Source: Rosistilla carotiformis
GTDB lineage: Bacteria > Planctomycetota > Planctomycetia > Pirellulales > Pirellulaceae
Assembly: GCF_007753095.1 (NCBI RefSeq)
Contig: NZ_CP036348.1
Coordinates: 1,488,001-1,552,000 of the forward strand
Length of the DNA stretch: 64,000 bases
Direction of reading: 5' to 3'
In this document: positions 5,679-11,650 of the stretch, in pieces
How the letters are laid out: each line of letters starts with the position of its first letter
How positions within the stretch are numbered: the stretch's first letter is position 1
Translations under genes and position numbers: made by a program
The notes under the pieces: model-generated
Databases searched by the model: none
Seen by the model: only the letters and a program-made list of their open reading frames with translations
What the model was told of the DNA's origin: nothing

Positions 5679-8105
5679 TTACGGTGCGATCTGGAAGCGA
5701 ATCGTCTGCACGGTGGACCGAGATGTCGCAGCGTGTTCTTGCCAAGCGGCTTGCCCGCGGGTTTGACCGGTGTATTGCGATTCGGATTCATGCAACCGCA
5801 TGTTTTCGAACCGGTCTCCCGATTGAAAGGAGAAGTAAAACAAGCGCTCACCGCTGCCCAGTCGCCGGACGTGATGGAACCGTGTCGTGTCAAGCCAGCT
5901 GAAGCCTTCGATCGTGTAGGGCAAACGACAGTCCGCGCTAAGGGGTTGGCTATCGAATGATCCGTCGTCACGCAGCGTCGCTTGATACATTCGCAGCGCC
6001 TGCAACGCGCCGCGTTGTCGGGTCAGATAACGAAACTCCTTTCCATCAAGCGTGGCAAAACCAATCACATCATTGCCAAGACAACAATCTTGGCTCAGCT
6101 GCGTCGATTCAAACGTCCCGCGTTGAGTCAGGGTGCTACGGAACAGCGAGACCTTCTCCGAGGAGTTGCTGTGCAGGTGATAAAACGTTTTGCCGTCGGC
6201 GGTTGCAATATCGACCACATCGCGTCGGATCAAACAGTCCACCGACAAAAGCGTCGATTCCAGCTTGGCACCGGCGACAACACGTTCTCGGAGCAGCGAA
6301 ATTTTGCCATCCGGTTGTTGCTCCAACCTCGCAAACCAGATCGGGGTCTGGTCGCGCGCCGTAACTTCGATCTCGTAGATTCCGTCGCCATTGTCGTCGG
6401 CTGGCATCGTGTCGCGGAGCTTGCGGTCGAAAACAAAAACGCCTTGGGTTGTCATCTTGACCAATTCGCGATCGGCACCACCGGTGATCGTCAGACACAG
6501 GCCATCGTACAGCCGGTCGGAATCGTCACGAACATCGATCGCCCAAGCGGATGCTAGTTGTTGACGTGAAAGGATGATCGTTTGACCGTCGGGCTCGAAC
6601 ACAAATTGGTCAAATTGAGGTGGTTCGTTGACGTCGCTGACCGTAACGGCCAACGGATGTTCGGCGATCTGTAGCGAATAGACATTATCCATGTCGCGAT
6701 CCAGCGGCACTTCAAAATCGGGCGTTTGCCGGAAACGCAGTTGCCGAGAGCGGGGATCGAACTGAAATCGCGATGCATCTTCGCCGGCAAGTTGAATCGC
6801 GCTCAAGTCGCCGAAATCTGCCGGGACTTCACCGACCGAATCGGTTCCTTCGGGCACTTTGAATCCGATTCGATCGCTGCGATGAACGACCGGTTGCGCG
6901 GCGACCGAATCCAAGTTGTGCGAGACGGCGTCGTTGGTGGAGCTGGCCAAAAACAAACCGCCGATCGCCAACAGGATCCCCAAGGATGTGGTCGCCAGCG
7001 TCCGCGGACGGCGGCCCTCGGGGGGCGGCTGTGTCTTTCCTGCGAACGCGTTCAGGTCATCTGCCATTGCGGCGGCGGACTGGTAGCGGTCCTGAGGAGC
7101 GAGCGCAAGGGCCCTCAAAATGATGTGTTCGAGTTCCTCTGGCAGTTGCGGATGCCGCTTCCTGAGCTCGCCTGGTTTGGCGACCGACAACGCATCGCGC
7201 GTCGCCGAATCCATTTTCTGCAGCGTGACCAATTCGCATAGCGTGAGTCCTAGCGAAAAGATGTCGCTGCGCTCATCGGAGATCCCTCGCAGTTGTTCCG
7301 GTGCCATATAGCGAGGCGTGCCGACGGCGTGGTACATGCTGGTCAAGCTGTTGTCATCGAGCGTTCGTTTGGCCAAGCCAAAGTCGGTGACCCACAGTTT
7401 GTTGGCCGAATCGATCAGCAGATTCGCCGGCTTCACGTCGCGATGCAAGATCTGTTTGGCGTGCGCGTGAGCCAATGCGGACGCGGCCTGGTTGCCCCAT
7501 TGGGCGATCAGACGCCAGTTGTTTCGCAGACGCTGCAGTAGTTCCCATGCCACGACGTCGCTGACACTACGGTCGGATTCCGATTCGTTCGATGCTTCCG
7601 CGGCGATCCGCACAACGTCGGCCAAATTGGGACCATCGATCAACCGCATCGTATAGAAGTGATGATCGGTCGATTCGCCAAATGCGTAAAGCGGAACGAT
7701 GTTGGTATGGTGCAAACTGGCGACCGCCCGGGCTTCCTGCTTGAAGCGTTCGATCCCCTTGGCATCCAACCGTTCTGAAGAAATCACCTTGATCGCAACG
7801 CGCTCTCGCAACGTGTCGCACTGGGCTTCATAAACCACTCCCATCCCGCCAACACCGATCTGGCGAACGATGGGGTAGCCGCCAATCTGTTCGGGGATTT
7901 GTTGCGACGTGGGCAATTCGTCTGCGGTATTGGCGTATTCGTCCAATTCCATCATCAACGGAAAGACGCGCAGGATATCGGTTGCCAACGCGGGGAACTG
8001 TTTCGCAAACTCGGCAACACTCAAATCATCAGCATCGGCCCGCTGCTCTTTGAAGCGGGACCATAGCTGTTCGATTTCGTGCAGCTGGAAGTCGGCGGCG
8101 GTCAC
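5679..8105 (-). CDS. Transmembrane Ser/Thr protein kinase with extracytoplasmic domain
   Basis: 808 residues from a GTG start. Domains: N-terminal helical region (1–70); Hanks-type kinase (about 78–355) with Gly loop IGVGGMGVVY (83–92), Lys106 in VAIKV, HRDVKPANLL (221–230), DFG (241–243) and APE (268–270); a single membrane segment (about 371–388); then ~415 extracytoplasmic residues. The outer part opens with a cadherin-like section (FQFDPRSRQLRFRQTPDFEV … AVTVSDVNEPPQF) followed by FYHLHS/FRYLTR-type repeats. Its GTG overlaps the TGA of the upstream LEPR-XLL gene (GTGA), so the two are almost certainly translated together. All catalytic residues are intact. The likely role is sensing an envelope signal; substrates are unknown. 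Confidence 0.92.
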   Translation of the reverse strand: MTAADFQLHEIEQLWSRFKEQRADADDLSVAEFAKQFPALATDILRVFPLMMELDEYANTADELPTSQQIPEQIGGYPIVRQIGVGGMGVVYEAQCDTLRERVAIKVISSERLDAKGIERFKQEARAVASLHHTNIVPLYAFGESTDHHFYTMRLIDGPNLADVVRIAAEASNESESDRSVSDVVAWELLQRLRNNWRLIAQWGNQAASALAHAHAKQILHRDVKPANLLIDSANKLWVTDFGLAKRTLDDNSLTSMYHAVGTPRYMAPEQLRGISDERSDIFSLGLTLCELVTLQKMDSATRDALSVAKPGELRKRHPQLPEELEHIILRALALAPQDRYQSAAAMADDLNAFAGKTQPPPEGRRPRTLATTSLGILLAIGGLFLASSTNDAVSHNLDSVAAQPVVHRSDRIGFKVPEGTDSVGEVPADFGDLSAIQLAGEDASRFQFDPRSRQLRFRQTPDFEVPLDRDMDNVYSLQIAEHPLAVTVSDVNEPPQFDQFVFEPDGQTIILSRQQLASAWAIDVRDDSDRLYDGLCLTITGGADRELVKMTTQGVFVFDRKLRDTMPADDNGDGIYEIEVTARDQTPIWFARLEQQPDGKISLLRERVVAGAKLESTLLSVDCLIRRDVVDIATADGKTFYHLHSNSSEKVSLFRSTLTQRGTFESTQLSQDCCLGNDVIGFATLDGKEFRYLTRQRGALQALRMYQATLRDDGSFDSQPLSADCRLPYTIEGFSWLDTTRFHHVRRLGSGERLFYFSFQSGDRFENMRLHESESQYTGQTRGQAAWQEHAATSRSTVQTIRFQIAP

Positions 8106-11100: not shown

Positions 11101-11650
11101 CCGGTTCCGGTTCCGGTTCTATAGACGACGAATCCTCAGACTGTTCGTTGGCGTCGTCCGTCGCTGGGAGTTGCGTTTCAATTTCTTTGGACGGTTCGAC
11201 AGGCTCCGTCGACGAAGGAGCTGCGGTGCTTTTCGATGTCGTGGAAACGCTGCCCGGAAGAAGGCTGGCGACCGATTTCCCCAGGCTTGTGACTCCCGAT
11301 ACGACCTGCTTCGTCGCGTTGGTCGCAACTTCGACCGTTGACTTCGCAGTTTCCACCACTCGTTCGCCAACGGATGGCTTTTCGGTCTCCGTTTCGACGG
11401 GGGCGGTCGGCGCTTCTTCCGAGACTGCAGTTGAGGAACTCGCCGCGCTGGCGGCGTCATCGACCTCCTCGCTCTGGCCGCTGGAGGAGCTCACCGGGTC
11501 AGCGTCTATCGGTTCCGAAGTCGAGCTGGCCGTAGCCGATTCGACGGGGGCGGCTGCGGTCAGTGGAGTTCCAGCCAGCAGCTGCCGCGGTTCAAGAGGT
11601 TCGGCAAACGACAAGTCGCGCAGTCGATTTTGTCGTTTACGAAAAAGCAT
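8102..11650 (-). CDS. Giant acidic LEPR-XLL protein with Asp and Ser-Asp repeats
   Basis: 1182 residues. The N-terminus carries SFAEPLEPRQLLAG (about 14–27), the LEPR-XLL motif found at the start of many planctomycete surface/exported proteins. Residues about 183–260 are extreme low complexity: roughly nine DDT units, an Asp run of about 11, then about 18 Ser-Asp pairs. Three consecutive 11-residue LPxG(L/I) repeats follow near 415–445. Most of the rest is Ser/Thr/Ala/Pro/Glu-rich and probably disordered. The C-terminus has VPTATAIVLGIFAPALG followed by basic RVRQRRSK, a membrane-anchor or sorting-like tail. It precedes and overlaps the kinase gene. An envelope-associated, possibly cation-binding, spacer protein is plausible; no enzyme domain is visible. 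Confidence 0.85.
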   Translation of the reverse strand: MLFRKRQNRLRDLSFAEPLEPRQLLAGTPLTAAAPVESATASSTSEPIDADPVSSSSGQSEEVDDAASAASSSTAVSEEAPTAPVETETEKPSVGERVVETAKSTVEVATNATKQVVSGVTSLGKSVASLLPGSVSTTSKSTAAPSSTEPVEPSKEIETQLPATDDANEQSEDSSSIEPEPEPDDTDDTDDTDDTDDTDDTDDTDDTDDTDDTNDDDDDDDDDDDSDSDSDSDSDSDSDSDSDSDSDSDSDSDSDSDSDSDEDDADKAIENESGNDSGSESSVERATIANSASDRSNTTPPELETANAHDFVAQETRDAAIPLTTVEAAPPKTTPPEVNQDGSVEARVDVDVQIDVELPAFSDVEFVNNTSVDADLPAFSSAASPTTENLASAPVPNESPTTPSNADSAASADRNLPQGLAKRDTLPEGIAQQDTLPKGLSKRSEPAVTSTPTNDSTAPIEAAQAATAELAPPVAVVEPAPIGEPGVVPMEPAATVTATVSASVQQAPSEQPPAATTRTTFNASLHMEVSIPNVFGKQDTTAEAVANAPQPSPTTDTSAQRSNRNLAASAAAPESLDLPASQPQTESSAVPSSPAALQTAETSIVPSTTAPIASEPPPTGNVAVNERVAEAPTGTTHFEPSVAELVATSAASERSVEPKPNGGQEVTEENASVELPVATDSEPAVADIATTTADAEPSAPRSLNRQVTAPPSAVESQLAIEATTSDGSLPSVSDTHVLADNQQQIAEPTLQGTFPESGSPVVSTTADTIVTPQPGVNDELVTETATDADANQLATATSIEREAPFVASDTVAERTGESRRRLSSDSLPVEAADSIAMHFDVANDSTETSITSATTPTDAIAETPSNAAESSLNALAWETQIESKVETLTASPIETRDTLDVQKASRLEGLETLGDRTAESSGSESFVASSVNTEEPDAWSAAERQHDADSNAVPTGLEPMSDSLSDPIEMLSTTPPSSTHDDGVHTPPTFATIIGSVAEARGESAMERPSDIQLVSPETSRGTSGQDLMPGVIGAPQLAYHHKISFSIQNLDASDAGKSDPTLRHSEGETEARTENGVLMDAGDAGGLYAHNDSSREQHPVKHGDDAASAESQEWAPLEAESESAAKRPLYPVSTAVPKAPAEEVPTATAIVLGIFAPALGRVRQRRSKENSTSKIRSEEQP
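10871..11103. repeat. In-frame coding microsatellite (hexamer, trimer, nonamer)
   Basis: On the + strand: 18 hexamer units of (A/G)GAGTC (10871–10978), a GTC/TCG trimer run (about 10976–11010), then nearly ten 9-mer units GTCGTCCGT (11015–11103). All unit lengths are multiples of three, so copy-number change would lengthen the acidic tract of the minus-strand gene without a frameshift. Confidence 0.95.

Follow-up and report, generated by a model that had tools for sequence, protein, structure and literature searches.

Planctomycetes encode many receptor kinases and, to our knowledge, the outer signals of these kinases are mostly unknown. A locus in Rosistilla carotiformis raises the question of whether such a kinase may be served by an exported partner encoded in its own operon. 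The stretch of DNA analysed here (the window) covers 64,000 nucleotides of assembly GCF_007753095.1, contig NZ_CP036348.1, forward positions 1,488,001-1,552,000. Its minus strand carries a gene for a large protein with a planctomycete export-type (LEPR) motif, which overlaps a gene for a receptor-type Ser/Thr kinase. We lean towards the reading, drawn from comparative sequence analysis, that the LEPR-type protein is exported and is the envelope-side partner of the kinase in a two-gene membrane unit, derived from operons with the order extracytoplasmic function (ECF) sigma factor, kinase, LEPR-type gene. The gene pair, its overlap and conservation, the kinase phylogeny, the recurrence of the operon and a serine at one sigma factor position were each established, and are described in turn below.

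A conserved and overlapping gene pair

The gene for the LEPR-type protein (1182 amino acids) occupies window positions 8102-11650 on the minus strand, as do all features of the two genes described below, with its ATG at 11650 and its TGA at 8102; the kinase gene (808 amino acids) follows at 5679-8105, with a GTG start at 8105 and its stop at 5679. The two share the four bases GTGA at 8102-8105, confirming the stop/start overlap proposed in an earlier reading of this DNA from its letters alone (the sequence-only reading). Because GTG at 8105 is the first start codon in the kinase reading frame, and because residues D5, L14 and W15 near this start are conserved in a kinase from another genus, the start of the kinase is not in doubt and the overlap is secure.

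Comparisons within the genus drew on three Rosistilla genomes, that of the window and those of two congeners. Both frames, the gene order and the GTGA overlap are present in all three, which argues that the overlap is more than chance; the sequence-only reading had made its proposal depend on close relatives retaining both pair and overlap, as these genomes do. A GGAAG-type, ribosome-binding-like stretch lies shortly 5' of the kinase GTG in every case, and codon differences among the genomes fall mostly at third positions across codons 1-37 of the LEPR-type gene and codons 1-360 of the kinase gene.

Related kinases in ECF-kinase-LEPR operons

In the same genome we found 69 kinase open reading frames (ORFs), of which seven have an ECF gene upstream and three of these seven are then followed by a LEPR-type gene. 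In operons A (kinase at 6928924-6931581) and B (kinase at 3419969-3422302), the kinase gene shares an ATGA overlap with the LEPR-type gene, while in operon C (kinase at 2728583-2731768) a 6-base gap separates them, and the LEPR-type gene is itself followed, after 411 bases, by a further kinase. The neighbour regular expression first used gave ten matches, seven of them judged true by eye; a later one misses the motif of the window protein, and the window pair was added by hand. An opposite-strand match beside the kinase at 7242145 was judged to be chance.

Relatives of kinase B at E 1e-90 were found in 31 of 240 genomes of the family (39 rows, with the R. carotiformis genome and its congeners counted). 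From the 38 rows outside that genome, 20 were picked by score and to cover the ten matching genera (two of the 20 are congeners), so that the sample is chosen by similarity, non-random and made of related rows. All 20 sampled loci, together with operon B itself, have the order ECF, kinase, LEPR-type gene (386-643 codons, by longest frame), and a four-nucleotide overlap joins the kinase and LEPR-type genes in 13 of these 21 loci. The motif L[ED]xRx[LMAV][LM] is present in the next gene at 20 of 20 sampled loci; with a filter for basic residues added, 16 of 20 next genes pass, versus 11 of the 156 remaining ORFs at these loci. By the cut-off applied, 23 of 26 third-gene proteins are hydrophobic over a stretch at the C-terminus.

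In a phylum sample, the kinase profile matched at E 1e-120 in 69 of 294 genomes, a figure that includes R. carotiformis and two further members of its family. Twenty extra-family loci were inspected; at the three with the highest scores a LEPR-type gene lies 3' of the kinase, and a further locus, G536, has one 383 bases downstream. At one of the three best, in genome G544, a gene for a 141-amino-acid protein lies between kinase and LEPR-type gene, and no ECF was found.

Two sets of accompanying genes were also seen at these loci. The 141-amino-acid gene of G544 (locus L182, 6197-6622, minus strand) encodes a HATPase_c_2 domain, which we take to be of the kind present in RsbW-type anti-sigma kinases. 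Just upstream of the ECF gene of operon A stands a gene for a matrixin metalloprotease with a dockerin domain and an export-type motif (locus L092, 229-2121); matrixin-related genes occur in five of the operon loci (L162, L170, L174, L175 and L176), while L177 gives a short match and L181 a weak one.

Phylogeny and distribution of the window-type kinase

Phylogenetic analysis places the window kinase among the kinases of these operons. A first tree of 85 kinase domains, from which domains shorter than 200 amino acids were dropped (60 of the 69 rows of the R. carotiformis genome were kept), joins the window kinase and five relatives to 22 operon kinases with support of 100/99. A second tree of 94 rows, built after setting aside 12 long-branch rows of the same genome and loci L190 and L195, recovers a window subclade of eight (96/88) inside a 45-row clade (99/98), itself nested in a 49-row clade (100/97). 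The 45-row clade holds all 26 operon kinases along with 11 rows labelled as being without a LEPR-type gene, in a labelling that counts G536 as lacking one despite the gene downstream of its kinase; the operon kinases do not form a single clade in this tree (two changes).

Full-length matches to the outer domain of the window kinase are rare. As the profile searches scored at most three to seven candidates per genome, copies may have been missed in the following counts, as also in those given above for the relatives of kinase B and for the kinase profile in the phylum. Within the family, full-length matches were found in 5 of 241 genomes, namely the three Rosistilla genomes, G008 and G156. Among 397 genomes sampled from the class, 16 match the outer domain at E 1e-20, and outside the genus the match is full-length in G544 only; G684 and G959 match in the distal half and the remaining genomes in the cadherin-like part. 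At E 1e-15, 2 of 392 genomes of a phylum sample match, these being the R. carotiformis genome and G544. A search of named genomes returned eight loci, one of which (L052) is a kinase of the window type identical to G008 contig L044, while the other seven matched the profile in part.

The neighbours of these kinases vary in order and orientation. In G544, an ECF gene lies upstream of the kinase, and there is a convergent LEPR-type gene with an overlap of 11 bases. In G684 and G959 the ECF gene is directly upstream of the kinase and a divergent LEPR-type gene lies about 470 bases past it; in G959 the kinase is also followed, after about 420 bases, by a second LEPR-type gene. Across the window subclade, six of eight kinases have a LEPR-type neighbour and three of eight an upstream ECF. 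No ECF stands beside the kinase in G008 or G156, and a model built from three ECFs found no match in window positions 1-20000 or in L042, L043, L044 and L090. The suggestion of the sequence-only reading to look for the same pair elsewhere thus yielded the pair in all three Rosistilla genomes, and LEPR-type genes adjoining related kinases elsewhere in the class.

In light of these trees and neighbourhoods, we see the window pair as a probable derivative of the ECF-kinase-LEPR operon without its sigma factor. In what we regard as the simplest history, an ancestor would have had an ECF gene, a kinase gene and a LEPR-type neighbour; the branch of the subclade that belongs to the family would then have lost the ECF gene, and in Rosistilla a LEPR-type gene would have come to stand ahead of the kinase.

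A serine in the sigma factors of the operons

Control of an ECF by a neighbouring receptor kinase has already been described (PMC8999054). According to that source and PMC13147305, the DAED motif of EcfP from Vibrio reads STTA, with phosphorylation of the second Thr by PknT, while EcfK from Xanthomonas is phosphorylated by PknS, the outer part of which has tetratricopeptide repeats (TPRs). In all 27 ECFs from LEPR-linked loci, which are related rows, a Ser stands at the third DAED position, within the sequence [NSD][PA]SD; it corresponds to the Thr that is phosphorylated in EcfP (PMC8999054). The acidic AED form occurs in at least two further ECF-like genes of the R. carotiformis genome. In an NCBIfam scan of four ECFs from the operons and the window subclade, three scored above the cut-off of the planctomycete subfamily TIGR02984, and that of G544 did not.

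The receptor kinase and its outer domain

The kinase domain of the window protein spans residues 79-348 (7062-7871; PF00069, E 7.4e-40) and carries the catalytic motifs GVGGMG, VAIK, HRDVKPAN and DFG. A transmembrane segment is predicted, from hydropathy only, at residues 369-387 (6945-7001), the best hydropathy window at 1.89 over 19 residues. On the strength of the catalytic motifs and this predicted span between kinase and outer domain, the protein is a Hanks-type receptor Ser/Thr kinase. About 421 residues lie beyond the candidate span; the sequence-only reading had attributed an outer domain of approximately 415 residues to a receptor-type kinase.

That reading also had the outer domain open with a cadherin-like part, for which support is no more than indirect. 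The first part (6552-6866) matches, by profile, repeats in long proteins, one set of which is strongly called Cadherin/Big_9 by Pfam, but the window kinase itself has no direct Pfam match in its outer domain, whether scanned as a whole protein or as window 6474-6890 alone. The outer domains of homologues match Pfam Cadherin below the cut-off (E 0.001 in G544, 0.13 in G008 and 0.25 in G156). The distal part (5727-6380) is possibly beta-propeller-like, and a sequence comparison of the outer domain with solved structures gave no match up to E 1.

The LEPR-type protein

The LEPR-type protein is rich in Ser, Thr, Ala and Pro (46% together) and in Asp and Glu (19%). Its N-terminus has basic residues followed by AEPLEPRQLLA, an export-type motif placed at residues 16-29 (11564-11605). 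As described in PMC8567305, planctomycete surface proteins have N-terminal basic residues and a LEPLEPRQLLA-type motif that is thought to be an export signal; there are proteomic data from Tuwongella, and the export of such proteins is inferred. Scanned alone, the window protein stays below the cut-offs of both motif families (14.8 versus 25.5 bits for PF07595; 12.5 versus 17 bits for NF012209), while in a genome search together with its neighbours it reaches 17.5 bits, just above the NF012209 cut-off. It had been called a LEPR-XLL protein, a family for which its score as a single protein falls short. With 1182 residues it is also large rather than giant, as it had been termed, since one published study reserves 'giant' for genes above 15 kb.

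Among congeners the LEPR-type proteins are 29-35% identical, versus 75-76% for the kinases. Conservation in all three genomes covers the first 33-37 residues almost completely, a small number of short motifs and the C-terminus. An alignment of the genus proteins gives the conserved motif ELPAFSDVEFVNNTSVD at 10532-10582, three LPxGLAKR-type repeats at 10322-10408 (start coordinate computed, end counted along the protein sequence) and the motif HHKISFSIQ at 8504-8530. By hydropathy, a C-terminal hydrophobic stretch followed by a basic cluster (8150-8218) is a possible membrane anchor; with a mean of 1.74, its 17-mer is the most hydrophobic one in the window protein. The protein is apparently exported, mostly low in complexity and partly disordered.

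Residues 184-261 (10868-11101) form a tract of Asp-Asp-Thr, Asp and Ser-Asp repeats, encoded by tandem repeats with 6- and 9-base units. The sequence-only reading had described this tract as Ca2+-binding-like and had suggested testing its Ser-Asp part for phosphorylation. The tract is missing from the LEPR-type proteins of both congeners, which keep the pair, and on this ground we reject it as the core of the system.

Weighing the explanations

In the mechanism we lean towards, the LEPR-type protein and the kinase would be made together, and the former exported and anchored by its C-terminus. As a co-receptor or tether it would modulate the kinase from outside, and changes in the envelope would in this way affect how active the kinase is on the inner side. 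Kinases of the operons would activate their ECF by phosphorylating the Ser in region sigma 2.2. In the Rosistilla pair, where the adjacent sigma factor would have been lost and the LEPR-type gene moved to first position, the output would have to be another protein, as no ECF is adjacent.

Several observations weigh against this mechanism. The hydrophobic C-terminal end is weak in the congeners (1.31 and 1.22), where it is not the most hydrophobic stretch, so the anchor named in the sequence-only reading is clear in the window protein and less so in the genus, and 3 of the 26 third-gene proteins have no such stretch by the cut-off used for the others. LEPR-type genes are common in these genomes, as the 11 of 156 other ORFs passing the filter illustrate. 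By the filter used, applied to both strands within 4 kb, 16 of the 20 extra-family kinase loci have no LEPR-type gene, which indicates that the gene goes with one kinase clade and not with kinases generally. Neither G008 nor G156, which represent two other genera, has a LEPR-type neighbour beside its kinase. Where the kinase has no LEPR-type gene, 8 of the 12 adjacent ECFs that could be read have the Ser too; given also the AED forms elsewhere, the residue tracks the linkage of an ECF to a kinase and not the presence of a LEPR-type gene. Finally, the window-type LEPR proteins align with the 26 third-gene proteins across 31 columns around the motif only (hhalign probability 3.9%), which does not demonstrate a shared origin of the partners; they may have been recruited independently.

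Some of these points would be expected if the two proteins were co-expressed without interacting, the LEPR-type protein being an ordinary surface or adhesive protein with its own function that shares a transcript with the kinase. The low identity of the LEPR-type proteins beside that of the kinases, the lone kinases of G008 and G156, and the export motif as the sole feature common to the window protein and the third-gene proteins all fit this explanation. We nevertheless consider it rather unlikely, as a LEPR-type gene recurs beside one kinase clade in varied orders and often with a four-nucleotide overlap, and rapid evolution of an outer partner is compatible with contact. Alternatively, the LEPR-type protein may be a substrate, its predicted cytoplasmic tail past the hydrophobic end (basic, then Ser/Thr) being phosphorylated by the kinase with an effect on tethering or turnover. 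A basic-basic-x-Ser/Thr-type pattern does occur in 14 of 26 tails, against a mean of 7.4 in shuffled tails (2000 shuffles, p 0.0015), but the figure is overstated, given the kinship of the rows and the general tendency of basic residues to gather past membrane segments, and 3 of 29 LEPR-type proteins without a clear hydrophobic stretch were excluded from the count. We treat the tail pattern as a weak lead and the substrate explanation as improbable.

A calcium-binding ligand or phosphorylation substrate in the Asp/Ser-Asp tract is in our estimate very improbable. The tract is there in the window protein and yields a weak match to the SdrD adhesin (19 bits versus a cut-off of 2500); it is also a plain tandem repeat, absent from congeners, and on the predicted topology it would lie outside the cytoplasm and the kinase domain inside, so it could not be the kinase's substrate. 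What survives of the envelope-sensing pair originally proposed is the overlapping genes, the receptor kinase, the export-type N-terminus of the partner and conservation in the genus, with the tract removed from its centre.

Comparison with known systems

The closest described systems are EcfP-PknT of Vibrio and EcfK-PknS of Xanthomonas. As far as the available parts of PMC8999054 and PMC13147305 go, their kinases resemble the window kinase in an N-terminal extension, a cytoplasmic catalytic domain, one span and an outer domain; the periplasmic TPR part of PknS recalls TPR-like matches of kinase B, and Ser or Thr at the DAED position of sigma 2.2 is shared with the LEPR-linked ECFs. The window pair differs from both, as described there, in having no adjacent ECF, a different outer domain and an added LEPR-type partner. 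Kinase-linked ECF groups ECF59, 61, 62 and 217 include planctomycete examples. The view that no system of this form had been described thus needs amending: control of an ECF by a neighbouring receptor kinase is described in PMC8999054, whereas an exported third partner was not found described. For the LEPR-type third gene, no description was found in the literature searched, a partial search from which its absence from print does not follow.

With proteins of PF07595 (Planc_extracel) and NF012209 (LEPR-XLL), the window protein shares the basic N-terminus and the LEPLEPRQLLA-type motif as given in PMC8567305; it is unlike them in its sub-threshold score when taken alone, in the overlap of its gene with a kinase gene and in its short hydrophobic C-terminal end. 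PknB/Stk1 PASTA kinases (NF033483) have a kinase domain, a single span and an extracytoplasmic part in common with the window kinase, which scores 217.7 bits against that model, below the cut-off of 450, and has no PASTA domain in a Pfam scan.

Surroundings of the pair

Upstream of the pair in all three Rosistilla genomes is a gene for a 741-amino-acid kinase (window 12178-14403), a second receptor-type kinase that falls on a long branch apart from the window kinase in both trees; downstream, again in all three, is a gene with beta-propeller-type Pfam matches. Well-conserved stretches lie 5' of the LEPR start at 11651-11740 on the minus strand, and one of them (11651-11676) abuts the start codon in the alignment of the three genomes. 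At the edge of the window, positions 2-556 encode the same protein stretch as positions 16327-16803 of locus L095 (94.6% identity across 149 amino acids); the two copies are spaced about 6-7 kb apart in the genome, which suggests a recent duplication.

Significance

A broader proposal, which we put forward tentatively and to which we assign a real but minor chance, is that exported LEPR-type proteins are a dedicated and so far unnamed class of envelope-side partners of planctomycete receptor kinases that control ECFs by phosphorylation, a transmembrane route of three parts taking the place of the usual anti-sigma factor, with the Rosistilla unit reorganised so as to operate with no sigma factor beside it. 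A conserved, operon-encoded partner bearing an export motif would be a concrete candidate for what some planctomycete receptor kinases read, and would offer a direct way of testing kinase control of a sigma factor across the envelope. If true, the proposal would moreover assign a role to part of the large set of proteins that carry the planctomycete export motif.

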